Shown here piece after piece: positions 31,761 to 45,591 of a stretch of 64,000 bases of DNA. Origin of the DNA: Natronomonas pharaonis DSM 2160 (GTDB lineage Archaea > Halobacteriota > Halobacteria > Halobacteriales > Haloarculaceae); the NCBI RefSeq assembly GCF_000026045.1, contig NC_007426.1:1550001-1614000 (forward strand), written 5' to 3'. Below the pieces are notes generated by a model. It did not search any database. It was not told the origin of the DNA and saw only the letters and a program-made list of their open reading frames with translations. Every line of letters starts with the position of its first letter. Position 1 is the first letter of the stretch. Both the position numbers and the translations under genes were made by a program.

Positions 31761-32669
31761 TCAATCTCGGACCTCCGATGCAATCTGAGACACGCGTCCA
31801 CGCGAGACCTCGCAGGCCTCCAGACGCGCGACATCCTTGCCGGTCATCTCCGTATCACGGTAGACCGATGCGATCCACTTGTCCCGCTCTTCCTCACGAG
31901 CCTCCTTCCGGGCTCGTTCGACCATCTCGTTGACCTCGCTTTGTCGCACCCAGTTCGACCCGTGGTCCCCGTCGTCAAGCCGGTCGTCTTTCAGCGCGTC
32001 CATGTATTTGAACGACTCCGAATCGTCCATGTTCGGCCACTCGAAGGTCTGGAGCGTCTCGTAGTACAGGACGCGCTTGGTGGGATGGATACGCTTCTTG
32101 TAGACACGAGCGAAGCCTCTGCGTTCGATGTTGATCCAGTAGTCCGCCAGCCGCTCGAAGCGGCTGTCTATCTCCTCCGGCGACGGCAGGTTGACGAAGG
32201 CGATAATCTCCCGAACACGGGCCATCTGCCACCTTTCGGCCGCATCGATGTTCTTGTTCGAGTTCGACCGGCGGGCATCGAACTGCTCGCCTTCCTCCAT
32301 AATCGTCGCCGAGCCCGGTGGAAGGTGCCCGTAGAAATCCAAGAACTCGAAGGGGTCGATAGTCGTCTTGTGTTCGCTGAAGCCCGCTGCCGACGTATCT
32401 GAAACGTAGCCGAGGAAGTCACAGCAGTTCGACTTCCCGATGCCGGTCTGGCCGTCCTTTGCCGTGACGAGACACTTTGCGTCCCGATTCTCAGCCTTTC
32501 GCTGTGCCAACTCGCGGAAGAACGGTCCGTTGAAGGCTCCGAATAGCGACTCGGCTGCTTCGGTCGGTGCGGGGTCGGCTTCGCGCTTCCGGAGCTCGGC
32601 GGCAAGGTCGGCATCGAGGACTCCGTCGAGGTCGTGCGGCTCGTGGCCGTGATCGACGCTGACTGCCAT
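31761..32669 (-). CDS. P-loop ATPase of the virus-like module, 302 aa
   Basis: Walker A GQTGIGKS at residues 73-80 and a Walker B-like strand ATIMEEGEQF (about 121-130, EE in place of DE). A downstream polar-helix region (NKNIDAAERWQMARVREIIAF and LPSPEEIDSRF) could hold the sensor and arginine-finger residues, and the C-terminal ~30 residues form a HTH (KDVARLEACEVSRGRVSQIA). This layout recalls additional-strand ATPases that move DNA in packaging, Zot-like export or conjugation. No close family is recognised. It is last in a three-gene leftward operon divergent from the membrane cluster. Confidence 0.75.
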   Translation of the reverse strand: MAVSVDHGHEPHDLDGVLDADLAAELRKREADPAPTEAAESLFGAFNGPFFRELAQRKAENRDAKCLVTAKDGQTGIGKSNCCDFLGYVSDTSAAGFSEHKTTIDPFEFLDFYGHLPPGSATIMEEGEQFDARRSNSNKNIDAAERWQMARVREIIAFVNLPSPEEIDSRFERLADYWINIERRGFARVYKKRIHPTKRVLYYETLQTFEWPNMDDSESFKYMDALKDDRLDDGDHGSNWVRQSEVNEMVERARKEAREEERDKWIASVYRDTEMTGKDVARLEACEVSRGRVSQIASEVRD

Positions 32670-32671
32670 CG

Positions 32672-33184
32672 CTAACTCCCTCCGGGGACCTTTTCGAGGG
32701 CATCATCCTGCCCTCTGGCTTCGAGTAGCGCCGCGAGGTCCTCGTGGCCGATATCATCGTGCGGCGTTGTCTCGCGCGCCTGTGCGCCGAAGCCGAGCTT
32801 CTTCGCCAGATCGTCGAGGTCCTCGGTCAGCTGTAGAATCTCCTCAACGGGGATCTCGGTAATCGCTGGGACAGTTTGGGTTGAGACGCCTCGTCCCCGA
32901 CCGGCTGACGGCTGATGCCGTTCGACACGTTGACCGAGGCGCTGCCGTAGCGGTGCGATGTTCGGGAAGTCGCCGTCGTCAAGCACCGATTCGTCGCGGA
33001 ACTCATACAGGACGTCGTAGTACTGGATGCAGGCGGCGGCTAACTCCTTGTGCGTCTGGACGCTGACCTGTCCTTCGACGCCTTCGTCCCAGTACTGATT
33101 CCGGACCATCTGTACGCGACGGCGCATATCGTGAATCATCCGCCGTGGCGCTCTGTCCTGCCGCTCGTCGTCGTCACTCGACAT
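32672..33184 (-). CDS. Helical accessory protein of the ATPase operon, 170 aa
   Basis: MSSDDDERQDRAPRRMIHDM opens a mostly helical, charged protein with a Pro-rich middle (TVPAITEIPVEEI) and an acidic C-terminus. No membrane segment or metal site. It sits 2 bases before the ATPase and overlaps the upstream small gene by 11 bases, so it is likely a partner of the ATPase. No family is recognised. Confidence 0.7.
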   Translation of the reverse strand: MSSDDDERQDRAPRRMIHDMRRRVQMVRNQYWDEGVEGQVSVQTHKELAAACIQYYDVLYEFRDESVLDDGDFPNIAPLRQRLGQRVERHQPSAGRGRGVSTQTVPAITEIPVEEILQLTEDLDDLAKKLGFGAQARETTPHDDIGHEDLAALLEARGQDDALEKVPGGS

Positions 33185-33428
33185 CGATATCGACCTCCGT
33201 TCCGGTGTCGTCGACGGGCTCGATCCAGATGCCGCCCCGGTACGTCTCGACGCGGACGGTTTGTCCCTTGTCGAGATTCAGCGTCATCGTAGCGTACTCG
33301 GTCAAGTTCGCGTAGAGGGCGGTGTTGCGCTGCTGGACAGTTCGCTCTTCGGTGTTGAGCGGTTCGTGACCGTCAGTGTACTGTCGGCGGTGGGTTCGGA
33401 CGGGTTTACTGCATTGATTGGAGGCCAT
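33174..33428 (-). CDS. Small beta-rich protein of the ATPase operon, 84 aa
   Basis: From MASNQCSKPVRTHRRQYTDG; the C-terminal half (LNLDKGQTVRVETYRGGIWI) has strand-turn-strand spacing like a swapped-hairpin AbrB-type or SH3-like domain. The start at 33428 is chosen over 33494 because the extra N-terminus enters the divergent promoter. It may be a regulator of the two divergent operons or a small structural protein. Confidence 0.6.
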   Translation of the reverse strand: MASNQCSKPVRTHRRQYTDGHEPLNTEERTVQQRNTALYANLTEYATMTLNLDKGQTVRVETYRGGIWIEPVDDTGTEVDIDVE

Positions 33429-33543: not shown

Positions 33544-33864
33544 ATGGCTGGTCAAAGCCAGAGTTACGTCAGCAAAGGCGCTGGCGCAGTGGAAGGAGTG
33601 TCGAACCGTACCGGGCTATCGGAGGCTCGTATCATGGGCACCGTCCGTGTCATCGGCGGTGCGATGATCGGCATCGCGATTCTCGCCCTTGTTCTGACCG
33701 AGGTGTTCACCCTCGAGGCGATGGACATCCAGGAGGGGCCATTCAGCGGAGTCGTCGATAGTCTCGAATCGACCGGGGGTGCTGCTCTCGGGCTGCTCGT
33801 CATCGGGCTGTTGGTTGCTGCTGCCAACCGCGTGATGGGCTTCTTCGGCAGCGGGGGCTTCTGA
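33544..33864 (+). CDS. Two-helix membrane protein, capsid-like paralogue 1 (106 aa)
   Basis: Start MAGQSQSYVSKGAGAVEGV was chosen by alignment with the next gene, with a GGCTATATGCC box about 30 bases upstream. Two hydrophobic helices (about residues 37-58 and 79-102) flank a ~20-residue loop. The C-terminus GLLVIGLLVAAANRVMGFFG is shared with the next gene. Size, two-helix hairpin and tandem duplication resemble the major coat proteins of archaeal spindle-shaped viruses, although I claim only architectural similarity. It heads the rightward cluster and is likely highly expressed. Confidence 0.78.
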   Translation: MAGQSQSYVSKGAGAVEGVSNRTGLSEARIMGTVRVIGGAMIGIAILALVLTEVFTLEAMDIQEGPFSGVVDSLESTGGAALGLLVIGLLVAAANRVMGFFGSGGF

Positions 33865-33867
33865 CCA

Positions 33868-34194
33868 ATGTCGGCGTCGTACGCCCACCGCGGTGCTGAC
33901 GCCGTCGAACACGCGAGCGACGCAACCGGCGTTTCAGAGGCGCGCATTATGGGCACCGTCCGTGTTATCGGCGGTGCGATGATCGGCATCGCCGTCCTCG
34001 CCCTCGTCCTGACCGAGGTGTTCAGCCTTGAGCAGTTCGCTCAAGACGCTGACGGAAACTACGAGGGGCCATTCGGTGGTGTCCTTGACAGCCTCACGTC
34101 GACCGGTCCGGCAGCACTCGGGCTGCTGGTCATCGGCTTACTCGTCGCCGCGGCCAACCGCGTGATGGGCTTCTTCGGAGGCTCTGGCTTCTGA
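33868..34194 (+). CDS. Two-helix membrane protein, capsid-like paralogue 2 (108 aa)
   Basis: MSASYAHRGADAVEHASDAT then IMGTVRVIGGAMIGIAVLAL, nearly identical to paralogue 1 over both helices. The loop differs and is longer (EQFAQDADGNYEGPFGGV). It begins 3 bases after paralogue 1. A recent tandem duplication with divergence confined to the loop and N-terminus suggests a repeated structural subunit exposed through the loop. Confidence 0.78.
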   Translation: MSASYAHRGADAVEHASDATGVSEARIMGTVRVIGGAMIGIAVLALVLTEVFSLEQFAQDADGNYEGPFGGVLDSLTSTGPAALGLLVIGLLVAAANRVMGFFGGSGF

Positions 34195-34247
34195 GCAGTC
34201 CATCCTGAGGCACCGCTTTTCGACTACTTTCCAACCGTCACACACCT

Positions 34248-34451
34248 ATGAGAGGAAGCGTCTGGACCGTCGTCGTTCTGGCCGTCGGCTTAGCGATGCT
34301 GCCGTTGATACTCGATTTCGGTGACGCCGAAGGCAGCCTGACGGCTGACCTCTTCGGCATCATCGCTGTCTTCGACGGCATCCTTGGACTGTTGGTCCTC
34401 GTCGCCGCGATGGCGGCGTTCGTGGCGTACTTCCAGAGCGACGGGTTCTGA
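34248..34451 (+). CDS. Two-helix membrane micro-protein, 67 aa
   Basis: MRGSVWTVVVLAVGLAMLPL, then an acidic loop and a second helix (FDGILGLLVLVAAMAAFVAY) ending in SDGF. The C-terminal GF is shared by both capsid-like paralogues and this protein. It lies 53 bases after paralogue 2. A minor coat or assembly subunit is a fair guess. Confidence 0.7.
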   Translation: MRGSVWTVVVLAVGLAMLPLILDFGDAEGSLTADLFGIIAVFDGILGLLVLVAAMAAFVAYFQSDGF

Positions 34452-34456
34452 GAACG

Positions 34457-34777
34457 ATGTACCAACGCTATTACTTCGCGCTGGCGGTCGGCGCGACGCT
34501 GCTGACAGCGGCGTGGCTGTTCCGACCGGACGAGCGTACCACTATCACGAGCTTCGGTGCATTCGTCAGCTGGAGCTTAACCGCCCTCGTCGGTGGTGAG
34601 GTCGAGCGCGTGACCAGCGACGGGAGCGTCGTCGCCGCTCCGGTTCCCGCTGAGGTCCGGTGGCTGACGTTCCTGTTTGCACTCCTGTCGCTACTCGCGC
34701 TGATTCTGTACACAGTCGGCGTCTACCCGCCGAACACCGACGATGAACCACTGAGTGATTCACAGACCAATGGATAG
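34457..34777 (+). CDS. Membrane protein, 106 aa
   Basis: MYQRYYFALAVGATLLTAAW opens a first helix; a second (TSFGAFVSWSLTALVGG) is weaker and a third (WLTFLFALLSLLALILYTVG) is strong, with an acidic tail. It is 5 bases after the previous gene and overlaps the next by 8 bases. No family is recognised. Confidence 0.7.
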   Translation: MYQRYYFALAVGATLLTAAWLFRPDERTTITSFGAFVSWSLTALVGGEVERVTSDGSVVAAPVPAEVRWLTFLFALLSLLALILYTVGVYPPNTDDEPLSDSQTNG

Positions 34778-35405
34778 CGAAACGCAAGAACACATGGACG
34801 CACAGGAAGACCGGCAGCTCACCGCTAGCAGCCAGCAGGCTGTTATGTCGGCTGCTGCCGAGAAACAGCACCGGAAGCTCGAAAACAGCCACTTCCTCAA
34901 CGAGCTTCGCGATTCGGATCTCGGTGATTCGGAGCTCTTCGAGTGGCTGGAAGACGAACATCCGACGTGGTTTTCCGGGGCGCATGCCGTCTCGAACCGC
35001 GGGGATACGTGGGACGATGAAGCCGACCTGCTCATGTTCAACAAGCGTGAGCGGGCACTGGCAGAGAACCGCCCTGGGCGGCTGCTTCGCGGGCGGCCAT
35101 TTCTGCTTGCGACCGCGCAGGGAGCCGAAACGCCACAACTCGATGCCTACGACCAGCCGGGTATCCCTGGCGACCGGCAGTACTGGAAGCGGAAGACGGC
35201 TGACAAAGAATCGGCCCGCCGGCCGATGTCCTCCGAGGAGCAGAGCCGCCTCTACGGCGCTGCCGAGGTCGCCGCCGACCTGATGGCACTGTCGAAGAAC
35301 GCTGCCGGTCTTGATGCGACCACGACCGCCACGACCGAAACGCGCGTTCGGCGCGAAGAGCAGGAAGAGGGAGCTGCATCGCGACTCGGGAGGTTCTACG
35401 AATGA
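34770..35405 (+). CDS. Soluble helical protein of the membrane cluster, 211 aa
   Basis: MDSETQEHMDAQEDRQLTAS opens a polar, helical protein without membrane segments. The middle has a W/F-rich patch (EWLEDEHPTWFSGAHAV) and the end (ASRLGRFYE) overlaps the following gene by 4 bases. It could be a peripheral or internal component of the assembly encoded here. The start is ATG 34770; the upstream MIHRP extension is not needed. Confidence 0.7.
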   Translation: MDSETQEHMDAQEDRQLTASSQQAVMSAAAEKQHRKLENSHFLNELRDSDLGDSELFEWLEDEHPTWFSGAHAVSNRGDTWDDEADLLMFNKRERALAENRPGRLLRGRPFLLATAQGAETPQLDAYDQPGIPGDRQYWKRKTADKESARRPMSSEEQSRLYGAAEVAADLMALSKNAAGLDATTTATTETRVRREEQEEGAASRLGRFYE

Positions 35406-35719
35406 CCGCCGGTAACGATAGCGACCAGCCCAAGACGATGCTGGAGTACCATTTCCGGCGACTGTCGCGGAAAATCGTGGTAGTGGCTGGCCTCGTTATA
35501 GCGAGTCTCTTCGTGGCAGCCGGCATGATCGTTACGCCGTTCGACTCGGTGGTGGGATTGATACTCACACTCGCTGCGATTGCTGTACTGGCCGTTTGCC
35601 ATGCGATTATGGAAGACGGGTTGCTGCGCCGCGGACTGAATAAGTTGCCTGGGGGTTCTCTCTCCGAACTCAAGCGCCCGGACGAACGCGAGCCTGCTGG
35701 AGGTGTCGCCGATGACTGA
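35402..35719 (+). CDS. Membrane protein, 105 aa
   Basis: MTAGNDSDQPKTMLEYHFRR then two helices (IVVVAGLVIASLFVAAGMIV and VVGLILTLAAIAVLAVCHAI) and a polar tail. It overlaps both neighbours. No family is recognised; the gene order and overlaps mark it as part of one assembly. Confidence 0.7.
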   Translation: MTAGNDSDQPKTMLEYHFRRLSRKIVVVAGLVIASLFVAAGMIVTPFDSVVGLILTLAAIAVLAVCHAIMEDGLLRRGLNKLPGGSLSELKRPDEREPAGGVADD

Positions 35720-36692
35720 CGACGACCTTCCGGGCGACGACGTCCTCGACGACGACCTGCTCGAAGACGCGGAGACAGAGGACACGGACCCTAAAACACG
35801 TGGAAAGAAAGCCGGCGAGCGAATGCGGCAAAAGACAGAGAACTTTGTCCTCTGGACCGGCGGCGTCGCCGGTGGCCTAACCAGTACCGCGTTCCGCATC
35901 GTACCGTTTACCGGTAGGCTGTTCAAGCGGATGGCGGTCAAGAGCATCGAGAACTACCACAAGAAGGCCGGCGGTGACGCGGTCGGTATCGTCGCCAAGG
36001 AGGGCCAACAGATCGACCTCATTCCGGTCAAGTACCGAACTCCTGAGGAGGTCGACGAAGGCGAAAAGGCCGGCTGGAAGGCCAAAGGAATCGACAAGGT
36101 CTGGAACCCCGGACCGGAAGGCTACTCGGTCAACTACATCGGCCGGACGCCGACAGTGCCGCTGCAGCGCGACGATCACGTCGAAGCCGGCTGGCTCAAA
36201 CCCCGCATCGGCACGGCCATTGAACTCGACAACTACTGGCCGCTGTTCGTCAACCCGGACATCACCGCAAACATCGACTACGGTGCGGCCGGCGGGTCAC
36301 AGCGGGCTCGTGCTGACGGTGGTATCAACGATCCGGCAGTGAGCTTCGAGCTCGACTCGCCGGGCGAGTGGGCCGGCGACAACATCATCGATCTCGACAG
36401 TGGGGACGGCTACGACGGGATGCGAATCTCGTTCAACAAGGCCAAAGAGTGGCGTGCCGAGACGACGACCTCCGAGTCGATGCAGATGCAGGAGGACCGC
36501 GGGTTCCTTCGTGGACGGCTCTCTGGCGACGAAGGGCCGTCGCTGTTCAAGTTGCTGCTGCTCTGTGCCGCCATCATCCTCGGCGTGCTGGCTATCGTCT
36601 TGATTGGTCCGCAGCTTGTCGGCGGCGAAGACGGCGGGTCGTCGATGAACCCGCTGCTGGTCAACAGCCTGATGGCCTTCGGGGCGGTCTGA
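35712..36692 (+). CDS. Single-pass membrane-anchored protein, 326 aa
   Basis: From MTDDDLPGDDVL, an acidic N-terminus, a weak amphipathic/hydrophobic patch (VLWTGGVAGGLTSTAFRIVP), a ~180-residue soluble domain rich in strands (VKYRTPEEVDEG, WNPGPEGYSVNYIG), and one strong C-terminal helix (LLLLCAAIILGVLAIVLIGP). The start at 35712 (ATG) overlaps the previous stop. Repeated Trp, Gly and Pro in the soluble part point to a folded domain of unknown function. Architecture fits a scaffold beneath a lipid envelope. Confidence 0.72.
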   Translation: MTDDDLPGDDVLDDDLLEDAETEDTDPKTRGKKAGERMRQKTENFVLWTGGVAGGLTSTAFRIVPFTGRLFKRMAVKSIENYHKKAGGDAVGIVAKEGQQIDLIPVKYRTPEEVDEGEKAGWKAKGIDKVWNPGPEGYSVNYIGRTPTVPLQRDDHVEAGWLKPRIGTAIELDNYWPLFVNPDITANIDYGAAGGSQRARADGGINDPAVSFELDSPGEWAGDNIIDLDSGDGYDGMRISFNKAKEWRAETTTSESMQMQEDRGFLRGRLSGDEGPSLFKLLLLCAAIILGVLAIVLIGPQLVGGEDGGSSMNPLLVNSLMAFGAV

Positions 36693-36693: not shown

Positions 36694-36924
36694 ATGTTCG
36701 GCGCGTTCATCCGCGCCGTGCTTTCTGCGGGCGCAGCCGTGCTTATCGCCGCGATACTGTCGTTCATTCTTGGATTCTTTCTGCCGTTTCTTGGCCCCGA
36801 AGACGAGCTCCTGTATCGGAGCTTCGCGGCGGTCGCCGAGCACAACCTGCTGGTGATGATGCTGGCCGTCTGTGCGGCGCTGGTGGCCCGCGCCGTCGTC
36901 GAGGCGCGGCCGGGAGGGCTGTGA
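36694..36924 (+). CDS. Two-helix membrane micro-protein, 76 aa
   Basis: MFGAFIRAVLSAGAAVLIAA and a second helix NLLVMMLAVCAALVARAVVE, with an acidic loop between. It begins one base after the preceding stop. Nothing further can be said. Confidence 0.68.
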   Translation: MFGAFIRAVLSAGAAVLIAAILSFILGFFLPFLGPEDELLYRSFAAVAEHNLLVMMLAVCAALVARAVVEARPGGL

Positions 36925-36925
36925 G

Positions 36926-37183
36926 ATGTCGGCGTGGCTGCGGTTTGGCTACGGTCTGATGGCGACTGTCGGGCTGGCGGTTGGCGGACTCATTTACCAG
37001 CAGGTGTTCGTCGCCGAGTTGCTCCCGATTGCCCCGACTGAGGGGCCGTTCGCGACACCTGTCATCTGGCTTGACCGCCTTGTCCCGGTGATTCTGGTTG
37101 GATTGCTACTGTTCGTCTGGGCGTGGGTGATTGCGGGCTCCGTCCAGGAAGAGCGGACGCTCGATAGGAGGCGTGTGCGATGA
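36926..37183 (+). CDS. Two-helix membrane micro-protein, 85 aa
   Basis: MSAWLRFGYGLMATVGLAVG and a second helix VPVILVGLLLFVWAWVIAGS, ending in a basic tail (LDRRRVR). The ATG at 36926 is one base after the previous stop; the longer frame to 36872 is rejected. The stop overlaps the next gene by 4 bases. Confidence 0.68.
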   Translation: MSAWLRFGYGLMATVGLAVGGLIYQQVFVAELLPIAPTEGPFATPVIWLDRLVPVILVGLLLFVWAWVIAGSVQEERTLDRRRVR

Positions 37184-37293
37184 CCGACGAAGAACTACAA
37201 CGGCTGCGAGATGAAGCGGTGCAGGAACAGCGGGGTCGTAATGCCGAGCGACCGCTTGCAGCAACGCGAACCGAAATCAAGACCCATGACTGA
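37180..37293 (+). CDS. Helical micro-protein, 37 aa
   Basis: MTDEELQRLRDEAVQEQRGR followed by NAERPLAATRTEIKTHD. It overlaps the previous gene by 4 bases and the next by 8. A charged amphipathic helix; the double overlap is the main support for translation. Confidence 0.5.
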   Translation: MTDEELQRLRDEAVQEQRGRNAERPLAATRTEIKTHD

Positions 37294-37972
37294 CAGAGTC
37301 GAAGAACTTGAGAGCCGAGTCGAACAGCTTGAGCAAATAATCGAATCGCAATCGGCAGGTCCGAGCCGGCGGAGCGTCCTCGCATCGCTGGCTGGCGTCG
37401 CTGGCGCTGGGGCGCTCGGCGCTGGCGTCGGGAGTCAGCGGGCAGCGGCGCAAGAGGCAGTCGGGCAGGTCGGCACTGAAGCCGATCCAGTCGATTTGTT
37501 TGCCAATTCGATAGACGCGGAGTCAGCAAGCATCGGGGAGGTTGCAGGTCTGATGTACTCAACCAGCGACCAACCCATCCCGGACAATACATCAACACAG
37601 GTCGAATGGAATACTGTCGAAATAGAGGACAGCGATATTGTGGATGCTGATACTGGCAACGACCGTTTCGTTATTCAGGAGGACGGTACATATTACGTTG
37701 AGTCAAGTATTTTGTGGGGCACTGGTCTGAGTTGGGGTGAAGGTGATCGAGCACAACTGTCAATACAGGGGGATGTTGGGCTTTTTATTAACCGAACCCC
37801 AGCCCATGTCGGGTGGGTAGGCGAGGAAAAGCATATGAAAATATCCCGCGTTTACGAGATTTCGGAGGGTGACAGTATTGAGATATTTGTTGAACAACGA
37901 ACAGGGGGTGAGGTGGAGCTGCGGCACTTTAGCGGTATGACAAATGCGTTTCAGGTGGTGAAGCTCGGATGA
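37286..37972 (+). CDS. Coiled-coil / Tat-type / C1q-like jelly-roll protein, 228 aa
   Basis: Residues 2-25 are a heptad coiled coil (VEELESRVEQLEQIIES), then SRRSVLASLAGVAGAGALGA, a twin-arginine-type hydrophobic segment, and a ~130-residue strand-rich domain (YYVESSILWGTGLSW and MTNAFQVVKLG) that resembles C1q/TNF-like trimeric domains. Together this reads as an exported trimeric spike or adhesin held by its N-terminal stalk. It is AT-richer than its neighbours in the C-terminal half, hinting at exchange of the binding domain. It is followed, 41 bases later, by a larger surface protein gene. Confidence 0.68.
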   Translation: MTDRVEELESRVEQLEQIIESQSAGPSRRSVLASLAGVAGAGALGAGVGSQRAAAQEAVGQVGTEADPVDLFANSIDAESASIGEVAGLMYSTSDQPIPDNTSTQVEWNTVEIEDSDIVDADTGNDRFVIQEDGTYYVESSILWGTGLSWGEGDRAQLSIQGDVGLFINRTPAHVGWVGEEKHMKISRVYEISEGDSIEIFVEQRTGGEVELRHFSGMTNAFQVVKLG

Positions 37973-38013: not shown

Positions 38014-39714
38014 ATGAACGAACGCACCGGCCTCGTCGTGGTCGCGGTCGTGCTCATCGGCCTCTTGCTACCGGCCGGTGCAGCAATTGCTGTTGACCTC
38101 GGGACATTCGAGGCCAGCGAAGGAGTCGTGCTTGAAACAAACAGCGGCCTCACGGTCGAGCTCTCGGACAGCCAGGAGTTGCCAGCCGTCCCGTTCGCCG
38201 ACGACGAAACAATTGCCGTTGATGGAGTTGAGATATCAGCCGACGGAAGCGCTGAGGTTGCGGTTTCGGATGCAACATTCGACGGCGATAGTGCGTCTGT
38301 CTCAGAGATCGACGCCACTTCGTCAGACATCTCAATTGCTCGTGACGATGTTGTCGAGGTTACTGTCGGCGGCGGCGTTGGCGAAGTCACGCTGCACGAC
38401 GCTGAGTTAGATAACGACGAAACTGATATCGAGATATCTGGGAACTCTGAGATGCAATTGGAGCTGCACGGGACAGGATTTGATGGCGGGATTCAATTAG
38501 TTGATGCTGATGGGGATCAGGTTGGCGGCACAACGACAGCAATCGACGGTGAGACAATTGACCTTGCTGCCGGAAGCTACGAGCTTCGGCTTCAGGACGG
38601 TCCGTCACAGCTTGAAATCCGGGATGAAACCAACCCGGAGACTCTGCTTGATGACGACGAAATTGATCTCCGCGTTCGCTTTTTCGGGGATGATGAGCAG
38701 GTGTTTGAGCGGACGGCTACCGATGGCACGGTTGACCTAGATGGGTTGCCCGCCGATGAAGAGCTCGTTGTCACCGTTCGTGATGAGAATGCGGACTACG
38801 TCTGGCGGCGCATCCTCATCGACTCGATACTTGACCAAAGTGCAATTTATCTGCTACCGGCCACGGAACCGTCGTCAGAAATCCGCTTCCACCTGCAGGA
38901 CGACACCGGCCGCTTCCCATCGGATGAAGCGCGGCTCTTCGTCGAGAAGCCGCTAACCATCGACGGAGAAACGACCTACCAGATTATCTCCGGTGATGAG
39001 TTCTCAGCTGGTGGGGAGTTTCCGACAACACTCGTCGAAGAGGAACGATACCGGCTGCGTGTCACCAACGATGCCGGCGAGGAACGGGTGCTCGGCGCGT
39101 ATACAGTCACCGGGCCCGACAATCCCTCAGTGACGATTGGCACTGTCAACATCGCCGGCGATGTCGAAACGGAGCCAGTCGCACAAGCGTCGCTTCGCGC
39201 CGCACCACCGGATGCTGACTACGAGTACGAAGCCCGCGTCATCTATATCGACGAGGAGGGCGCGACTGACGCACTTACAATCGGTATCGAGAGTGAAGCC
39301 GGCGAGACCGTCCGGCCTGAAATTGAGGAATCTGGACCGTACGGTCGCTACATCGAAACCTACCCAATCTACGACCACAACTTCGACCCCGAAGAGGACT
39401 CGCTTATTGTCCACGTTGAGGCCGACCGCGGGTACCAAGGCACCGAGACGTGGGATATCCCGGTCGGTGACTTGCCAGACGTGCTGGCTGACGCCGATAT
39501 CGACCCGTGGATTCTGGAGTTGATGGGTTGGGTCTCGTTGATTGCACTGGCAGGTCTCATCGTCATCGTCTCGCCGTCGCTGGCAGCCATCGTTACAGTC
39601 GGCTACGCGGCGCTGTTGACGGCCATCGGCATCCTACCCATTCCCGGCGTCGCCATCGGTGTCGCCGGGTCAACGGCCATCCTCTACCGGCTTGGCGGGG
39701 GTGGACTCCGATGA
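38014..39714 (+). CDS. Large surface protein with signal peptide and C-terminal membrane helices, 566 aa
   Basis: MNERTGLVVVAVVLIGLLLP is a signal peptide. About 450 strand-rich, acidic residues follow, with repeated EIR/ELRL edges suggesting several Ig- or carboxypeptidase-regulatory-like domains. The C-terminus has two to three hydrophobic helices (LMGWVSLIALAGLIVIVSPS, ATVGYAALLTAIGILP and a last VAIGVAGSTAILYRLG). This fits an outer spike or fibre protein anchored by the C-terminus, as in several archaeal membrane viruses; no homology is claimed. It overlaps the next gene by 4 bases. Confidence 0.72.
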   Translation: MNERTGLVVVAVVLIGLLLPAGAAIAVDLGTFEASEGVVLETNSGLTVELSDSQELPAVPFADDETIAVDGVEISADGSAEVAVSDATFDGDSASVSEIDATSSDISIARDDVVEVTVGGGVGEVTLHDAELDNDETDIEISGNSEMQLELHGTGFDGGIQLVDADGDQVGGTTTAIDGETIDLAAGSYELRLQDGPSQLEIRDETNPETLLDDDEIDLRVRFFGDDEQVFERTATDGTVDLDGLPADEELVVTVRDENADYVWRRILIDSILDQSAIYLLPATEPSSEIRFHLQDDTGRFPSDEARLFVEKPLTIDGETTYQIISGDEFSAGGEFPTTLVEEERYRLRVTNDAGEERVLGAYTVTGPDNPSVTIGTVNIAGDVETEPVAQASLRAAPPDADYEYEARVIYIDEEGATDALTIGIESEAGETVRPEIEESGPYGRYIETYPIYDHNFDPEEDSLIVHVEADRGYQGTETWDIPVGDLPDVLADADIDPWILELMGWVSLIALAGLIVIVSPSLAAIVTVGYAALLTAIGILPIPGVAIGVAGSTAILYRLGGGGLR

Positions 39715-40118
39715 GGACCATCGGCGTCGTCGCATTCGTGCTGTTCCTCGGGTTCAGCGTGTCGATGCTGTCGATGTCCGGCATCGGGCCGGCTATCTTC
39801 GGCCAAGACACCGACGACGAAGTCGGCCTCGGACCGCAGGAGGACCTGGAGCAGGCCGCCGACGACGCAAGTGTCGATGAGGGTGACGAAGGTGGTATTG
39901 GGGCCGATGTCGCAGCCGAAGACGAGCCGACAACCATCGGGTTCGTGCTCGAAGGTGCGCAGTTCGCTGTCGGACTGGTAGCTTCGATAGCCGCGCTGCC
40001 GTTCACGCTGATGAATCTCGGTCTCCCGCGGTTCTTTGCCATACCGCTCGGGATGGTCCTGCAGATTGTCGGCGCAGTCGGGCTCTTTCAGTTCCTTACT
40101 GGGAGGGAGTGGATATGA
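39711..40118 (+). CDS. Membrane protein with signal-like N-terminus, 135 aa
   Basis: MRTIGVVAFVLFLGFSVSML is a first helix, followed by a ~50-residue acidic loop (EDLEQAADDASVDEGDEGG), then two helices (FAVGLVASIAALPFTLMN and FFAIPLGMVLQIVGAVGLF). The loop is probably outside the cell. It is coupled to both neighbours by ATGA overlaps. No family is recognised. Confidence 0.7.
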   Translation: MRTIGVVAFVLFLGFSVSMLSMSGIGPAIFGQDTDDEVGLGPQEDLEQAADDASVDEGDEGGIGADVAAEDEPTTIGFVLEGAQFAVGLVASIAALPFTLMNLGLPRFFAIPLGMVLQIVGAVGLFQFLTGREWI

Positions 40119-40459
40119 CGACGCCCGACTCTCCGGAGCTCGAGGACAGCTCACTCGCGTGCTTCGGGCAGGGGACTGAAGGCGACCTCGTCGAGTGCGT
40201 GACGACTGACCTGTCGGCAGCGGCCGGCGGGACGACGATGATGGGGCTACTCATCGGCGGGACGCTGCTGCTGTCGCTATACATCGCCGGCGACGGCGAT
40301 CCAGCGGTCCCGACCGTCGTCACGATCCTCGTCGGCGGCACGCTTGTCCCGATGCTCCCGCCGCATCTCACGCCGTTTGCCTACTCGATAGTCGTTCTCG
40401 GCATCGCCTTCGGCGGGATGGCCGCCGCACAGCGCTGGCTGCTTCGCGGAGGGTTCTGA
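40115..40459 (+). CDS. Membrane protein, 114 aa
   Basis: MTTPDSPELEDSSLACFGQG, then three or four hydrophobic helices (TTMMGLLIGGTLLLSLYIAG, VVTILVGGTLVPMLPPHLTP, YSIVVLGIAFGGMAAAQRWL). Two Cys near residue 16 and 29 could form a disulfide. It ends in GF like the capsid-like proteins. Function unknown. Confidence 0.7.
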   Translation: MTTPDSPELEDSSLACFGQGTEGDLVECVTTDLSAAAGGTTMMGLLIGGTLLLSLYIAGDGDPAVPTVVTILVGGTLVPMLPPHLTPFAYSIVVLGIAFGGMAAAQRWLLRGGF

Positions 40460-40461: not shown

Positions 40462-40812
40462 GTGCGACGGATGCACCAGTTGATGGCGCTGCTGTCGTTT
40501 CCGCCGGTGCTGCTGCATGAGCTGACGCACTACGCCGTTGCGCGTCTCAGGACCGATGACGCCGCCTTCGAGGCCGAGGTCTTGGGCTCCGAAGCACGGG
40601 CCGTCTGGCGGCCGCTGGACAGTCCGCTGTGGCGATTCCTCGCGTTCCTTGCCCCGACGCTCTTCGGAGCGCTGCTGGCCGGCCTGTGGCTCGCCAGCGG
40701 CACTTCCTTCGAGGGCTGGCGTGCTGTCGCCGGCGTCGGGCTCGCACTGTACACACTCCCCTCAGTCGCTGATATACGCGGCGCGCTGGGGCGGCAACAA
40801 GCGCAGCAGTAA
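40462..40812 (+). CDS. Membrane protein with HELTH metalloprotease-like motif, 116 aa
   Basis: From GTG (or ATG 40471, MHQLMALLSFPPV). HELTH at about residue 18-22 lies in the first membrane helix (FPPVLLHELTHYAVARL), the HExxH signature used by site-2-type membrane metallopeptidases. Two more helices follow (FLAFLAPTLFGALLAGLWL, AVAGVGLALYTLPS). A third ligand, usually Asp in a later helix, may be in the SVADIRG end. It could process the coat or spike proteins of this cluster, or be a degenerate relative without activity. Confidence 0.62.
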   Translation: MRRMHQLMALLSFPPVLLHELTHYAVARLRTDDAAFEAEVLGSEARAVWRPLDSPLWRFLAFLAPTLFGALLAGLWLASGTSFEGWRAVAGVGLALYTLPSVADIRGALGRQQAQQ

Positions 40813-40825: not shown

Positions 40826-42229
40826 ATGCGAACCTTTCAAAACACATCTGTAACGGAGGTAGAGTTCGGCCGTCTCGACTACGCACGTCAAGCCCGTGAC
40901 GAACTCCCCAACGAGGCACTCGACGTGGATGACGACGGCCGTGAAAAGCGCCTCATCGTCGACAAGGACGCCATCGACAGGCGGACGATGTCGAGAGTCG
41001 AGGGGCTGGCTGCCGACAGCCGCGACTCCGCCCGCGGCGATATGCACGGCCAAGCCGAACTGACGCAGTCGGAACGGAACCAACTCGACTTCTCGCGAAC
41101 GACGATTCCGGAAGCACGGACAGCGAAGGCGTCGCTGCAGTCCGAAGGTGTCGACGACTGGGTCGCACACTTCGACCCCACACTGACAACATCGGAGATG
41201 GCCGACAAGGCCCGTGACTCGGCAATCGGTGGCGGCCAGCGGATGGACGCCGAAGACAGCGTCCGCGCACAGGACCGCCGCCACGCCGAAGCCTTCCGCG
41301 AAGTACAGGGACAGGCAGAACGGCGAGCCCGAGATGGCTGTGAACAGGGCTTCGAGGATGCCTGCGACCAACTCGTTGAAGAGTTCGGCTTCGAACGCGC
41401 GGAAGCTGAACAGCTCCTCCGGCAGCGACAGGCGGAGGCCGTTGCACAGGCCGACCTGCAAGATACGAGTTTTCTCCGGGCAGCAACGAATGGCCGGTAC
41501 CTGCAGGAGCCGCCGGAGCCAGCTCCGAACGCGCCCGGCTGGCGGAAGGCATCGACGGGGCGCTTCATTGGCTACGACCTGGTCGACCCGCGTGCAAAGC
41601 GACACCCCGAAACCGGTCATATCGCTGAAACCGACCCGATAGAACTCTCTCGCCGGGAAGCCAGAGCGCGATACGGCGACCCGGACGGTGGGTCGACTTC
41701 ACCGGGCAGCCGCGAGGAAGCCAAACGCGAAGCCCTCTTCGAGTTCGAACCGATGGATCGCGGAGAGGACATCATGGCCCAAGCGGCGGCGGCTGATGTC
41801 ACTCTCTCACCCGATGAGGCAGACCCCGAATACCCAGCCGGAGCGACCGGGCGGACGGCGATGGGCGGGTTTAATCCCCACTACGGCGGCGAGGTTGCCC
41901 CAAACACGAACACACCGCTCGATGAGACGCCGCCCGATATCGCACGCGGCGACGATCCCTTCGACATGAGCGAAAACGGTGGACTACTCAGTGACGACCG
42001 CGACCGTCAGGGAACACTTGACGCCGGTCTCGATGCCGGCACAACCCGCGACCGGAGCGGCGAAATAGCCGGGTCGGCTGGCTTCGAGGACCGTCGCGAC
42101 GAACTGCAGCCGGACAACGACGCCGGCGAACAGACTGGGCTCGTTGAGGTCGAGAGTGACATCGGCGACGGACAGACGGACCTCTTCGGCGGCAGCGCGA
42201 CGGAAACGACAGGTGGTGAGTACCGATGA
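40826..42229 (+). CDS. Large acidic element protein, 467 aa
   Basis: MRTFQNTSVTEVEFGRLDYA opens a helical N-terminal half (for example VEEFGFERAEAEQLLRQRQA) and an acidic, low-complexity second half. No membrane helix or enzymatic motif. The N-terminal phrase LIVDKDAIDRRTMSRVEG is the most structured part. It precedes and overlaps the giant acidic gene by 4 bases, so both probably belong to one cytoplasmic or internal structure. A DNA-mimic or tegument-like role is speculation. Confidence 0.7.
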   Translation: MRTFQNTSVTEVEFGRLDYARQARDELPNEALDVDDDGREKRLIVDKDAIDRRTMSRVEGLAADSRDSARGDMHGQAELTQSERNQLDFSRTTIPEARTAKASLQSEGVDDWVAHFDPTLTTSEMADKARDSAIGGGQRMDAEDSVRAQDRRHAEAFREVQGQAERRARDGCEQGFEDACDQLVEEFGFERAEAEQLLRQRQAEAVAQADLQDTSFLRAATNGRYLQEPPEPAPNAPGWRKASTGRFIGYDLVDPRAKRHPETGHIAETDPIELSRREARARYGDPDGGSTSPGSREEAKREALFEFEPMDRGEDIMAQAAAADVTLSPDEADPEYPAGATGRTAMGGFNPHYGGEVAPNTNTPLDETPPDIARGDDPFDMSENGGLLSDDRDRQGTLDAGLDAGTTRDRSGEIAGSAGFEDRRDELQPDNDAGEQTGLVEVESDIGDGQTDLFGGSATETTGGEYR

Positions 42230-45200
42230 CCGACGATGATGACGCACAGAGCCGGAGCGGGACAGCCGAGGAACGACGTGAGGCCCGTCGTGGCGGCGGC
42301 AGCCGGCAGCGACAAAGACAGATTCAAGACGAAATCGCCGAGCAGTACGGTGTCGATAGAGATGAGGTTCGTGTTCGCGGCACTCAGCAAGGAATCGAAC
42401 GGGAGCTCACCGAAGCCGGCGCGACGACCGCGGCGGAGACAACGCGGGAGCGCTTCGCTGAGAGCGATTTCGTTGAGCCGGATGATGTCGACGTCGACGT
42501 GCAACGACAGGGTGCCCGCGTCGACGCTCGTATCCCAGAGGACCGACAGCAAACAGTCGCCGAGCGGGCGCGCGAGGAACTGACAGACAGCCCAGTTGTT
42601 ACTGAGCAGGATGTCGACGTTGAGGTCGGTGAACGCGGTGTTGAGGAAGGCGGCCTTACAGAAGAAGGCGAAGAGCGTGTTGAGCAGCGTCAAGAGGCGC
42701 TTGAACAGATAACAGAGGCAGATATCGAACCGACCGGGCGGGGACTCGCCATCGACACGCCCGACGCCGAAATCCTGCGGCAGCTGTCCCAGATGGGCGA
42801 CACGCCGGGGGAGATTCTCGACGACCCTCGAACGTTTTCGACGAACGCGCCAGGGTTGGGCGACGCTGCCGGGTATAACATCTCAGTTTACCGGAGCGAG
42901 AGCCGGCGCGACAGCGTCGGCGGCATCTCGTTTGAGGACCGCTCCGAAGTTCGTGATGTTCTTGAGGCAGCAGCGGAGCTGCCCGACCGCACGCTCGCCG
43001 AGTTGGATGATGATCCACTCTTCGCAGGTACGGGCGATATAGCCCGGTATCGTGCCGAGCGTCGCGGGCGCAGACAAGCTCGCGAGCAGGCGCGCGAGGC
43101 GTTCGACGATATCGACGATATCGACCCGGCCGGCATCGATGCGACAGCAGAGGGCGAGATTATCGTTCAAGACGAGGAGGGCAGGACGCGAACCGGTGAT
43201 GATATTCAAGCGGCTGCGGAAGGCGCGGCCGAACTTGAACGCGAGCACAGCAGGGTGGATGTTCCTGACGCCGATGGTTCAGCAGCCGCACGGACGGAGC
43301 CAGACATCGATGTCGGCGTCGAAGACGTCGAACAGGAACTCCGTGACCGCGTCGAGGACGATGTCGAGCGGATTCGCGTTCGCGAACGTGGGGATGGGCT
43401 CGTCGGTGCAGCGACGACGGAAGCTGGGGAGACCCAAGTCGTCGGTGTCGGCGTCGACGACGAGACGACGCGAGCATTCGCCGAGGATATCCAAGAGAGT
43501 CGCCGAGACCGACAGCGTCGCAACGTCGCTGAGCAGTTCGACGAGGACCTCGGCGGCGTCGATGTCGATGAAGACGATCTCGTCGAAGAGGAAGATGAGG
43601 AAGACGGCGAGATTACGCTCGGCCTCGGCGAGGATGTTCAGCAAGAGGCGGCAGTTGCACAGGCTGCTGACGAGTTCGAGCAGTTCGACGAGGACGATTT
43701 GGAGACGTTTGAGGAGGATGATGGCGACCTCGGCGTCCGTCCCGAAGCGTCGGCCGTTCGGGAGCAGGCCCGCGAAGAGGCGGCTGATGAGTTCGGCACT
43801 GGTGTTGGCCCGGACGATGTGGAGCTCCGCGAGGAGGACGGCGAGCTCGTCGCCGAAGCGGAGGTGCAGACCGCCGAGCCGCAAACGCGCGAGGAGCGCG
43901 TTCTTGACACCGTGACCGGCGGCTTCACCCGCGAGGTCCGAGACCTGCAAACGGATACGCCGACTGAGGAGGATGTGCTGCCGGACATCCGTGAGGGGTT
44001 AGAACCGGATATTGATGTTGACGATGCCGACCAAGACCGAGACGTCGTCGACGAGATTTTCAGTGGGCGAACTGGCGGCATCGCGGCAGCCGGTGGGGCA
44101 GCAGTCGCCACGCCGGAGCCTGTTTCGACGACGGGCGGCGCGGTGGCGTTGGGAGCCCTGACTGTCGGTGCAATCGCCGCCGACACCGCCCGTCGTGCTG
44201 GCGTGTTCGAGCGTTCGGAGCTTGACCCGGCCGAGCAACGACAAGTCGAGGAAGTCGGGCTCGGCGCTGTCGCCCCTGAATCCGAGATTGATGTCGCCGA
44301 CCCGCAGACAACGGCTGAACTGGAGGTTGGCGACACCCGGACGACAGAGCTGGAGCCGACGGACGTGACCGACCGCAGTGAGTTGGGTGTAGCGCGCGAC
44401 GGCGACACGACTGCCGACCGCCAGCCCGTCGACGACACGGTTGTCCCGGGCGAGTACCCACTCCCCGGTCGCGACATCGCGCGTGACCCCGCTCAGGACC
44501 GCCCGGAGCGTGTTGACCCAAGCGACGTGCTGGGGGACGTACAAGCCGCCACAAGCGTGACTATTGGCGATACTGTCGGCGACGCTGTCGACGGCGAGCA
44601 ATTCCGCCGCGAGCGCACGGGCGTCGGGACGATGGATGAGATTATGGACGAGGTGCAACGGGATATCGACGAGCCCGTTCGGCGGGATCGTGGCGGGGCG
44701 TTCCGGCCGGAGCGGGAGTTTCCCACCGGCGCAGGGGCGGTTGTTGGCCGCGAGACGGCGCGTGTCGGAGAGGCACAGCGCCCCGGCATCGAAACTGGAC
44801 AAGACCAGTTCACCGGCGCTGCGGCAGGCCAGCCGCCCGCACAACCCATGACTGGTGCGTTCGAGCGCCAGCAGCAGGCGCAGCGACCGCGCGTATTTGA
44901 GCGGACCGGCGTCACTTCAGGATCCGATATCGCTACTGGTCCGCGCACCGGTGTTGAGCCGGAGACGGGGCTCGGTGTTGATACTGGCCTCGGCACTGAT
45001 ATCGCGACCGAGCCAATGAGTACACAGATGACAGGGCAGCAGATGCGCATGGGGCAAGCGCAGCAGGCTACGGCCGAGCCCACGGCAACGCAAAACGTGT
45101 TCGAGCAGGCTCAGCCAGCAGAGACGGCGATGCCCCCGACGCAGCAGTTTCAGCCACGGCGACGGCTACCGCGTCTAGGCATCAACCTGCCAGCGACGGA

Positions 45201-45336
45201 GATTGAAGAGGAGCAAGAAGAGTTCACCGCCGACGACGAAACATTTGGGACCGGGTTCCAAGACGCCGACGACGCCTTCAGCGGCTCGGTATTCGACGAC
45301 GACTTTGAGTTCGATGGTGACGGCTTCGGGCGCTGA
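42226..45336 (+). CDS. Giant acidic, largely disordered element protein, 1036 aa
   Basis: The longest gene of the module. The first ~600 residues are extremely rich in D, E, R and Q with coiled segments (RREARRGGGSRQRQRQIQDE). Near residue 610-650 there is one hydrophobic patch (GGIAAAGGAAVATPEP and GAVALGALTVGAIAAD) that could be a membrane hairpin. The last third is Q/T/G/P-rich, then a basic spot (FQPRRRLPRLGINLPA) and a very acidic tail. Its end is followed by CACTTTTTTGC at 45346, a probable terminator. Composition suggests a matrix or scaffold protein rather than an enzyme. Confidence 0.72.
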   Translation: MTDDDDAQSRSGTAEERREARRGGGSRQRQRQIQDEIAEQYGVDRDEVRVRGTQQGIERELTEAGATTAAETTRERFAESDFVEPDDVDVDVQRQGARVDARIPEDRQQTVAERAREELTDSPVVTEQDVDVEVGERGVEEGGLTEEGEERVEQRQEALEQITEADIEPTGRGLAIDTPDAEILRQLSQMGDTPGEILDDPRTFSTNAPGLGDAAGYNISVYRSESRRDSVGGISFEDRSEVRDVLEAAAELPDRTLAELDDDPLFAGTGDIARYRAERRGRRQAREQAREAFDDIDDIDPAGIDATAEGEIIVQDEEGRTRTGDDIQAAAEGAAELEREHSRVDVPDADGSAAARTEPDIDVGVEDVEQELRDRVEDDVERIRVRERGDGLVGAATTEAGETQVVGVGVDDETTRAFAEDIQESRRDRQRRNVAEQFDEDLGGVDVDEDDLVEEEDEEDGEITLGLGEDVQQEAAVAQAADEFEQFDEDDLETFEEDDGDLGVRPEASAVREQAREEAADEFGTGVGPDDVELREEDGELVAEAEVQTAEPQTREERVLDTVTGGFTREVRDLQTDTPTEEDVLPDIREGLEPDIDVDDADQDRDVVDEIFSGRTGGIAAAGGAAVATPEPVSTTGGAVALGALTVGAIAADTARRAGVFERSELDPAEQRQVEEVGLGAVAPESEIDVADPQTTAELEVGDTRTTELEPTDVTDRSELGVARDGDTTADRQPVDDTVVPGEYPLPGRDIARDPAQDRPERVDPSDVLGDVQAATSVTIGDTVGDAVDGEQFRRERTGVGTMDEIMDEVQRDIDEPVRRDRGGAFRPEREFPTGAGAVVGRETARVGEAQRPGIETGQDQFTGAAAGQPPAQPMTGAFERQQQAQRPRVFERTGVTSGSDIATGPRTGVEPETGLGVDTGLGTDIATEPMSTQMTGQQMRMGQAQQATAEPTATQNVFEQAQPAETAMPPTQQFQPRRRLPRLGINLPATEIEEEQEEFTADDETFGTGFQDADDAFSGSVFDDDFEFDGDGFGR

Positions 45337-45378
45337 CGCCTCCGCACTTTTTTGCTGTTTGCGCGTGTCGCTTGCAAT

Positions 45379-45591
45379 ATGTTCGAGACGGTGGTACCAA
45401 AACTTCGAAAGTGGGTCCGTTTGCTGGCGTTCTTTGGTGGCTTGGCAGCCGTCGGCTTCGGGATCTACTCGATTCTTGTCGAACCGCTGTTTCTGGTTCC
45501 AGGGCCGGCGGAGCCGACTCGGGGCATCGAAGCCGAGTTGCTGCTCATCGTCGGCGGGTTCATGTGGTGTCTACTTGTCACAAAAATCTGA
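45379..45591 (+). CDS. Two-helix membrane micro-protein, 70 aa
   Basis: MFETVVPKLRKWVRLLAFFG; helices at about 14-32 and 50-68. TATA-like CTTGCAATATG precedes the ATG. A longer in-frame start (45352) lies in the terminator tract and is not used. It follows the T-tract, so it may have its own promoter. Confidence 0.6.
   Translation: MFETVVPKLRKWVRLLAFFGGLAAVGFGIYSILVEPLFLVPGPAEPTRGIEAELLLIVGGFMWCLLVTKI

Follow-up and report, generated by a model that had tools for sequence, protein, structure and literature searches.

We analysed a 64,000-nucleotide stretch of Natronomonas pharaonis DSM 2160 (contig NC_007426.1, positions 1,550,001 to 1,614,000), hereafter the window, in which an operon for a P-loop ATPase faces a long run of mostly small membrane-protein genes at 31761-45591. 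This module is the right-hand part of a provirus at 12748-49596 that is related to LSV-48N, a lemon-shaped virus of Haloferax sp. Atlit 48N (PP151251, 24.9 kb) published in 2025 (PMC12714723). The genes were compared with eight relatives selected for carrying close matches, namely Natronomonas aquatica (G241), Natrinema ejinorense (G258), G128, G062, Halomarina oriensis (G204), G035, the Natrinema DC36 plasmid and LSV-48N itself. Expectation values (E) from blastp and tblastn against LSV-48N, the spindle-shaped virus His1 and the relatives come from small local databases (3 to some thousands of sequences), and values of about 1e-6 and above count less than they would in a public search; hhalign values are those of single pairs. 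Gene calling placed three minus-strand genes (31761-33428), the ATPase operon, opposite 17 plus-strand genes (33544-45591), and all called genes of the module are intact open frames. Its features are as follows (aa, amino acids; Ig, immunoglobulin; CDS, coding sequence; LSV with a number, the LSV-48N protein).

31761..32669, minus: P-loop ATPase of the His1 gp16 / HSSV ORF1 / SSV1 B251 family
32672..33184, minus: conserved ATPase-operon protein in the position of LSV-48N CDS22 (8/8 relatives)
33174..33428, minus: small ATPase-operon protein (E 4e-4 to LSV21; by profile in 2/8 relatives)
33544..33864, plus: two-helix membrane protein, candidate major coat protein copy 1 by position and topology (family in 8/8 relatives)
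33868..34194, plus: its paralogue, candidate coat copy 2 (78-80% identity to copy 1; E 2e-5 to LSV20)
34248..34451, plus: 67-aa two-helix protein, in the place of an Ig-like membrane protein in LSV-48N and the Natrinema plasmid
34457..34777, plus: membrane protein, LSV18 family (8/8 relatives; one helix over threshold, three in relatives)
34770..35405, plus: soluble 211-aa protein, LSV17 family (8/8 relatives)
35402..35719, plus: two-helix membrane protein, no relative found
35712..36692, plus: 326-aa protein with C-terminal membrane anchor, LSV16 family (8/8 relatives)
36694..37183, plus: two small two-helix membrane proteins, 76 and 85 aa (4/8 and 5/8 relatives)
37286..37972, plus: surface protein with Tat-type signal, coiled coil (by eye) and fibre-like C-terminal part
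38014..39714, plus: spike/tail protein, LSV12 family (E 4e-26 to LSV12; structure model)
39711..40459, plus: two membrane proteins, LSV11 and LSV10 families (8/8 relatives each)
40483..40812, plus: small membrane HExxH metalloprotease-like protein, LSV08 family (6/8 relatives)
40826..45336, plus: two large acidic proteins, 467 and 1036 aa
45379..45591, plus: 70-aa two-helix membrane protein (hydrophobicity scan)

The original prediction, made from the DNA letters of the window, had described an ATPase operon facing about 17 tightly packed and often overlapping genes, mostly for small membrane proteins of two to four helices with paralogous two-helix proteins in the lead, and this description agrees well with our analysis. 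In the plus-strand run, six of the 16 adjacent gene pairs overlap and 12 of the 16 are separated by at most 25 bp. A Kyte-Doolittle scan found at least one hydrophobic segment in 14 of the 17 proteins and two to four segments in 10, nine of which are no longer than 140 aa, and the first two genes are tandem paralogues (78-80% identity). The two large proteins near the end of the run, which had been called acidic and disordered, are indeed acidic (21.8% D+E in the 467-aa protein and 25.9% in the 1036-aa protein), their disorder being a judgement by eye. By profile, the family of the shorter one is found in two of the eight relatives and that of the longer one in none; tblastn of the 1036-aa protein matches G241 and G062.

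None of the 20 module proteins has a Pfam match above cut-off. A PHROGs search, which took in nine of the 20, gave no terminase or VirB4 match, and neither Pfam (20 proteins) nor PHROGs (9 of 20) gave an HK97 capsid, terminase or portal protein, so the predicted lack of HK97 capsid, terminase and VirB4 genes stands within these searches. The surface protein 37286-37972 matches phrog_13989, a virion structural protein of the 'head and packaging' class (E 3.6e-8), and weakly a tail assembly chaperone PHROG (E 0.08), and its Pfam TAT_signal match is below cut-off; 40826-42229 matches phrog_22825 of unknown function (E 2.5e-13). The spike/tail protein 38014-39714 has an N-terminal hydrophobic segment, Ig-like beta domains and a C-terminal three-helix hydrophobic domain. 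In the HExxH protein 40483-40812, H12, E13, H16, P58, G62, S94 and D97 are invariant in all nine aligned rows, the window included, which makes it a possible candidate for a viral membrane metalloprotease. It is barely credible that the module is a cellular secretion or conjugation system. The one match in that direction, of the second coat candidate (33868-34194) to the TrbC/VirB2 pilin family in Pfam (E 0.015, 16.0 bits), lies below the cut-off of 27.9 and is expected of short two-helix proteins; moreover, the Pfam results hold no VirB4 or coupling protein, and the orthologues compared include a virus, a plasmid and integrase-bearing elements.

The original prediction took 31761-45591 as the unit, and these limits proved too narrow. 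The provirus (12748-49596) is inserted in a tRNA-Val gene, and the unit is 36,836 bp with the attachment (att) core counted once. The window's genome (G000) contains a third contig, C3, of 23,486 bp, which carries an identical ATPase and consists of window positions 28971-49611 followed by 12716-15620, the mismatches being confined to the att junction. The junction is an attP of the kind that recombination in the 13-bp core TGGGTTCGGGCAG would produce. C3 is therefore the provirus minus 15621-28970 (13,350 bp), and 36,836 - 13,350 gives 23,486 exactly. The features that define the element and its two forms are listed here.

12748..12760, plus: attL core TGGGTTCGGGCAG (C3 junction compared with the window)
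12790..13854, minus: tyrosine integrase (Pfam; 48% identity to the LSV-48N integrase, blastp E 5.6e-113; 100% copy on C3)
15621..28970: 13,350-bp block in the chromosomal provirus, missing from C3/PL23 (C3 comparison)
46308..46367, minus: strong hairpin 3' of rep, candidate origin or terminator
46465..48339, minus: Rep-Arvir rolling-circle replication initiator (DUF7845), putative catalytic Tyr303
48336..49138, minus: two small genes between attR and rep, on the integrase strand across attP
49584..49596, plus: attR core, the same 13 bp TGGGTTCGGGCAG, 3' end of tRNA-Val
49584..49658, minus: tRNA-Val

Published clustered regularly interspaced short palindromic repeats (CRISPRs) of N. pharaonis lie at chromosome positions 165989 and 1578997 and at position 27 of the plasmid PL23 (PMC2841640). 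In the window's genome, arrays occur at C1:165989 and in the window, whose array has its second repeat at C1:1578997, and the first repeat of C3 is at 27. Since these positions match and the length equals 36,836 - 13,350, C3 is plasmid PL23 of N. pharaonis. PL23 was reportedly described by Falb et al. in 2005 as a circular multicopy plasmid. The integrated copy has also been noted before: in 2011, a His1 gp16-like ATPase reading frame (NP3284A), a CRISPR system and a 13-kb insertion in the chromosome-integrated PL23 copy were reported (PMC3119063). That paper places NP3284A within the 13-kb region; the ATPase 31761-32669 is outside the 13-kb block, as C3 carries it too. There, PL23 is a plasmid whose integrated copy gained a CRISPR-bearing insertion, whereas we regard the element as a virus genome of which PL23 is a shorter and probably deleted form.

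We then compared the element with its relatives. Profiles built without His1 and HSSV recovered nine families in all eight relatives and in one order: the ATPase, its operon partner, the coat candidate and the three-helix, 211-aa, 326-aa, spike, 135-aa and 114-aa proteins. The HExxH family was found in six of the eight, and more distant loci keep fewer of the nine families, from one (G268, G241b) to eight (G370). The synteny search that had been suggested with the original prediction thus revealed a colinear module, and the orthologues, for which a purely single-copy chromosomal distribution had been considered, are carried by a plasmid, a virus and proviruses. Blastp against LSV-48N matched the integrase (48%, 6e-113), Orc1 (3e-62), the spike (4e-26), Rep (3e-21) and the HExxH protein (3e-6). 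Both elements have an integrase, Orc1, a MarR-like gene, a Rep-Arvir protein and an ATPase operon facing membrane and spike genes in the same order. Their sizes are similar (24.9 kb for LSV-48N and 23.5 kb for PL23); LSV-48N has circular and integrated forms, and here there are attL, attR and an attP-joined contig that is reportedly circular. The two differ in that matching proteins are only 22-48% identical, the Cas proteins of the provirus are unmatched among the 35 LSV-48N proteins compared, and the window has a doubled coat candidate with the 67-aa protein replacing the Ig-like membrane protein. Particles of LSV-48N were lemon-shaped in electron microscopy and their proteins were detected by mass spectrometry (PMC12714723). 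The most abundant viral protein there has a beta-sandwich match at residues 365-549 and a C-terminal HHpred match to the SSV19 tail protein (92%, but E 4.9); its length and an Ig-like stretch point to CDS12, the relative of 38014-39714, as its probable identity.

The link to classical spindle viruses is carried by the ATPase. Hhalign gave 100% to HSSV ORF1, 99.8% to His1 gp16 and 89.5% to SSV1 B251, and blastp to His1 gp16 in the local database gave E 1.5e-12; searches of PHROGs, NCBIfam and PDB profiles returned nothing useful. A search of 50,697 phage records at E 0.01 gave only HSSV-BLv25 (4e-21) and two His1 records (4e-6) for the ATPase and only LSV-48N for the spike. LSV-48N was not recovered by the pairwise ATPase search, although many of its other genes match. 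The view that no gene is clearly homologous to those of such viruses, a limit of judging by eye, can thus be discarded for the ATPase, which matches HSSV-BLv25 ORF1. Six plasmid records also carry the ATPase (the 33.9-kb Natrinema DC36 plasmid with 57% identity, a second Natrinema plasmid with a partial match and four Haloquadratum plasmids of 6-7 kb). Across 392 genomes of the order, G000 included, the ATPase occurs in 25 and the spike profile in 35; a genome scan with the single ATPase sequence gave none, and with the alignment it gave six loci. From this kinship, 31761-32669 is probably a packaging or morphogenesis ATPase. His1 (Halspiviridae) and HSSV-BLv25 likewise have a homologous ATPase near a two-helix coat gene, with small membrane and spike-like proteins in one run, but their other virion genes are without detectable one-by-one homology to the window. 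The His1 genome is also linear with its own DNA polymerase (gp12), to which the best blastp match of the window proteins was at E 0.21. The PL6-family plasmids of Haloquadratum (PMC5974055) share the His1 gp16-type ATPase, and their protein F3 seems to resemble a betapleolipovirus protein now placed in DUF7845; at 6-7 kb, they are too small for such a module.

A bridge to spindle coat proteins was found in a Natronomonas element, G286, which carries the ATPase and a relative of the spike (tblastn E 1e-27). The gene divergent from its ATPase operon encodes a coat protein with 37% identity to SSV1 VP1 (73 aa aligned, 43.9 bits). The ATPase and spike of this lineage therefore do co-occur with a true spindle coat protein. 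This coat gene (L053 10881-11144) lies on a Natronomonas chromosome, divergent from a His1-type ATPase, and the G286 element has its integrase, ATPase and spike each twice, about 41 kb apart. The spike C-terminus scored 34.5 with HSSV ORF8, 33.4 with SSV1 C792 and 24.5 with His1 gp27 against reversed controls of at most 19.3, the probabilities being only 2-27%. A set of Ig-like membrane proteins (from Nat, LSV, G160 and G066) matched His1 gp23, HSSV ORF3 and G286 (86%, E 5e-6, score 40.6, reversed 24.1), which is only a hint because the sets were grouped by eye and the window protein lacks an Ig domain. Another tandem two-helix pair divergent from the ATPase operon is present in G160 (L051 14748-15655). 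Such tandem duplication, recurring in the window and G160, is like the repeat common to the SSV1 VP1 and VP3 genes.

Taken together, the ATPase common to His1, HSSV-BLv25 and SSV1, the colinearity with LSV-48N and the G286 bridge argue for a spindle-type virion module. We conclude, with a probability of about 0.86, that N. pharaonis harbours a temperate lemon-shaped virus of the LSV-48N lineage and that the module is the block which forms its virion. The att limits of the provirus, the attP-joined second contig and the nine-family order in eight relatives are evident from sequence comparison; the coat, spike, ATPase and metalloprotease-like roles are those that position, topology and kinship suggest. 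The original prediction had likened the module to spindle-shaped or pleomorphic enveloped viruses; the spindle half of this likeness is upheld, and the pleomorphic half has no support beyond the Rep gene.

Several observations weigh against this conclusion. Apart from the ATPase, no window protein singly matches His1 or HSSV at E 0.01. Of the searches proposed with the original prediction, profile comparison succeeded for the ATPase, and profile and structure searches gave no match for the coat candidate: the 33544 family scored 16.1 against spindle coat proteins (His1, HSSV, SSV1), below its reversed control of 21.7, where the G286 coat protein scored 49.8 in the same comparison. Its structure model (predicted local distance difference test, pLDDT, 67) found no match at E <1 in PDB or BFVD, and a PDB profile search gave nothing below E 1. 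The coat role of 33544-34194 is argued from position and topology, and a rival candidate, the 85-aa protein 36926-37183, scored 21.8 against HSSV ORF2 with a reversed control of 19.4; which window protein is the coat is a guess. The coat profile also matches a second, out-of-place two-helix gene in three of the eight relatives, perhaps through drift. The spike likeness to His1 gp27 means little because HSSV ORF6 scores higher (26.2 against 24.5). C3 could in principle be a partial assembly contig around attP, a candidate that we set aside on its length and the published PL23 CRISPR position; PL23 is reportedly a closed circle. Moreover, to our knowledge no particles of N. pharaonis have been described, and the element is known here from its genes.

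Other comparisons were neutral or were dropped. An early iterated coat profile recruited more distant two-helix proteins and was left out of the claim, because hydrophobic profiles drift. A control set of the 85-aa family gave the 33544 family a score of 25.0 (23.1%), no better than the 25.0 that the reversed 33544 set gave, and the 35712 and 34770 families found nothing above reversed controls among all given His1 and HSSV proteins, gp20 and gp18 included. For the spike model (pLDDT 69), the matches are generic Ig-like domains, with no spindle-virus tail among the 50 matches listed in each of two fold searches, and the PDB profile search of the spike gave three matches at E 0.004-0.005 (two mannanase chains and one bacterial immunoglobulin domain).

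Given its plasmid form and its many small membrane proteins, the element could also be read, as the original prediction had suggested, as a pR1SE-like plasmid-vesicle system in which membrane proteins bud vesicles carrying PL23 DNA with no defined virion. We consider this quite unlikely, as the gene order and the spike follow LSV-48N, whose particles are lemon-shaped (PMC12714723), and the spike and ATPase stand beside an SSV1-type coat protein in G286. A less distant alternative is a decayed or domesticated provirus of spindle origin which makes no particles now, PL23 being a plain multicopy plasmid. That no N. pharaonis particles are known to us, and that 13 kb with Orc1 and the regulator are missing from the PL23 form, would fit such decay. 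On the other side, the module frames are intact with all nine core families present, neither the integrase and Rep nor the att sites are damaged, and the element also occurs joined at attP; we therefore regard decay as doubtful, though well ahead of the vesicle system. It overlaps with the lemon-shaped-virus reading, which concerns identity and roles rather than present activity, and our confidences in the two are not exclusive.

If the module is the virion block of a temperate lemon-shaped virus, its life cycle might proceed as follows. The integrase would excise the element from tRNA-Val, which would align the integrase, the two small genes and the Rep-Arvir initiator in one same-strand run; rep would be turned on only in the circle, and rolling-circle replication would follow as in the betapleolipovirus SNJ2. 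The coat, associated with lipid, would be built of two-helix membrane proteins such as 33544-34194; the tail spike and surface fibres would come from 38014-39714 and 37286-37972, and the ATPase would power packaging or assembly. Particles may then exit without lysis.

The replication part of this scheme draws on the Rep gene (46465-48339), which matches Pfam DUF7845 at 2e-92 and in which Tyr303, with Lys301 and Lys306, is invariant in all four aligned sequences. A 2026 study showed that DUF7845 proteins (Rep-Arvir) initiate rolling-circle replication and named LSV-48N as one carrier (PMC13107129). In SNJ2, excision joins the integrase and rep into one operon required for replication (PMC13107129). 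In C3, the integrase reads across attP into the two small genes and then rep on a single strand, and LSV-48N has the same integrase-to-rep succession; by analogy, we infer a switch from silent provirus to replicating circle. The element and SNJ2 share the Rep family, an integrase and a rep at opposite provirus ends joined by circularisation, and a hairpin 3' of rep; they differ in virion type, and the switch was shown for SNJ2 and is deduced for this element. The hairpin (46308..46367), about 100 bp downstream of rep, has a minimum free energy of -37.1 against a shuffle-best mean of -24.4 (minimum -28.2), from a somewhat weak null of 10 mononucleotide shuffles scanned every third position. It stands out in the window only, LSV-48N being at the edge of the null and G258 and G035 not above it. 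The SNJ2 origin element likewise lies on the downstream side of rep (PMC13107129), and 46308..46367 may be the origin or, alternatively, a terminator.

The Rep gene also bears on whether the module belongs to a Pleolipoviridae-like pleomorphic virus. Rep matches 21 phage records, and among the 20 listed most are pleomorphic viruses, with LSV-48N and Harhisp1 present too. As this Rep is common to several virus kinds (PMC13107129), and as the phage records matched at E 0.01 are LSV-48N alone for the spike and HSSV and His1 alone for the ATPase (the two module proteins searched), a pleomorphic virus is very unlikely, even slightly more so than the vesicle system. A PL23 protein was reported to resemble ORF528 of the lemon-shaped Pyrococcus abyssi virus 1 (PMC3543421); in light of the Rep-Arvir paper (PMC13107129), this protein is most likely Rep.

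The difference between the two forms of the element is the 13,350-bp block, which contains a MarR-like gene, an HNH gene, Orc1, a CARF/Csa3-type regulator and the cas operon. The genes of this region and those up to the module are listed here.

15699..15986, plus: small regulator, backbone gene (LSV-48N CDS01; blastp E 6e-6 to LSV01; 6/8 relatives)
16068..16664: HNH protein, adjoining Orc1
16657..17661, minus: Orc1/Cdc6-type ATPase, backbone gene (LSV-48N CDS06; Pfam Cdc6_lid 2e-12; E 3e-62 to LSV06)
18311..18889, minus: CARF/Csa3-type regulator adjoining the cas operon (PADLOC CARF3 E 1e-75, Csa3 3e-16)
19096..28807, plus: complete type I-D cas operon (PADLOC)
28925..29540, plus: CRISPR array, 9 repeats and 8 spacers (Rfam repeats)
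30988..31489, minus: HicA toxin gene and a DUF7387 gene in the HicB position (Pfam HicA_toxin 7e-16, DUF7387 3e-20)

The 'MarR-like' label of 15699..15986 is taken from its Natrinema plasmid relative, the protein having no Pfam match of its own. This gene and Orc1 are backbone genes in LSV-48N and other relatives, the Natronomonas element G067 has the order int, MarR, Orc1 (Orc1 71% identical), and the PL23 array of 8 repeats begins inside spacer 1, without leader and first repeat. For these three reasons, we infer that PL23 is a deletion derivative from which Orc1, the MarR-like regulator and the cas operon are gone and in which all module genes, the integrase and rep remain. Two points speak against the deletion: the 2011 paper takes the 13-kb block as an insertion, the opposite of our reading (PMC3119063), and the lack of an I-D cas gene beyond Orc1 in G067 concerns a short stretch of 2.6 kb. 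A published table gives no annotated Orc/Cdc6 protein above 300 aa for PL23 (PMC3528665), which fits replication by Rep. Conceivably, PL23 is the packaged small genome of a lemon-shaped virus living beside its own 36.8-kb full-length provirus. The short form, having kept the virion module, integrase, Rep and a leaderless array and shed Orc1, regulator and cas genes, would depend on and compete with the chromosomal copy like a defective-interfering genome, and the full form would supply type I-D immunity in trans to itself and to the cell; we put this forward tentatively, as a possibility short of an even chance.

The cas operon comprises cas6, cas10d, cas7d (csc2), cas5d (csc1), cas3d, cas4, cas1, cas2. 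For each of the eight Cas proteins, the best PADLOC match is a type I-D model, and the 18311-18889 regulator matches CARF/Csa3 models; type I-B, first called from the gene layout, was thereby ruled out. The only cas1 in the host genome is that of the provirus. The cell owes its only cas1-bearing CRISPR-Cas system to the chromosomal provirus, and this system plausibly serves against competing viruses. The nearest Cas10d proteins are in G060 of another family (85% identity) and G390 of another genus in the same family (83%), with matches in 25 of the 392 genomes of the order, G000 included. In seven genomes, with 10.8 to 40 kb read around the cassette in each, all nine of its genes are kept and its surroundings hold no match to the virion module; among 17 compared sequences, the Cas proteins had no match at E 0.01. 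Three of the eight spacers (1, 2 and 8), searched singly against phages, had no haloviral match, and matches of all eight in the loci compared did not exceed 24 nt (3 mismatches) or 22 nt (1 mismatch). An orphan array at G000:C1:165989-166187 has four repeats and three spacers, with a repeat sequence that differs from that of the provirus array; none of its spacers matches the provirus. At C2:96001-101000, where PMC2841640 lists an array, a simple repeat finder gave none.

Proviruses of haloarchaea with CRISPR systems have been described, and this provirus is like the one of PMC12596717 in size and CRISPR-Cas cargo. Compared by description, however, the proviral systems there are type I-B and lack cas1, cas2 and cas4, where the system here is a complete I-D with adaptation genes; the main text of that paper is silent on type I-D and on Natronomonas. 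A provirus with a complete, adaptation-competent CRISPR-Cas system is thus added to those haloarchaeal cases.

As LSV-48N was published in 2025 (PMC12714723) and integrated PL23 noted in 2011 (PMC3119063), the module is not 'undescribed', as it had first been called: the kind is already known, and the element is an addition to the LSV-48N lineage with unusual cargo. In the parts of the open-licence literature seen, we found no statement that PL23 or its integrated copy is a lemon-shaped virus, and an earlier statement elsewhere is possible; the main text of the LSV-48N paper is silent on Natronomonas and PL23 (PMC12714723). The lineage, published from Haloferax, now spans Natronomonas, Natrinema and Halomarina, and the G286 element provides a sequence link from it to the classical spindle viruses. 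A cryptic plasmid of a cultured and sequenced model haloalkaliphile, which we take to have been catalogued as a plasmid for two decades, becomes a candidate virus that can be searched for in existing cultures, and its int-to-rep arrangement makes an SNJ2-type replication switch testable in a lemon-shaped virus.

Some smaller features accompany these genes. The HNH protein 16068-16664 shows a weak likeness to an IscB model, below cut-off, and its C-terminal stretch resembles the C-terminus of Orc1 proteins. Between the array and the module, 29968-30643 encodes a DUF7386 protein together with a helix-hairpin-helix protein of 60 aa. The HicA and DUF7387 genes sit between the CRISPR array and the ATPase operon; in G258, both are near Orc1.

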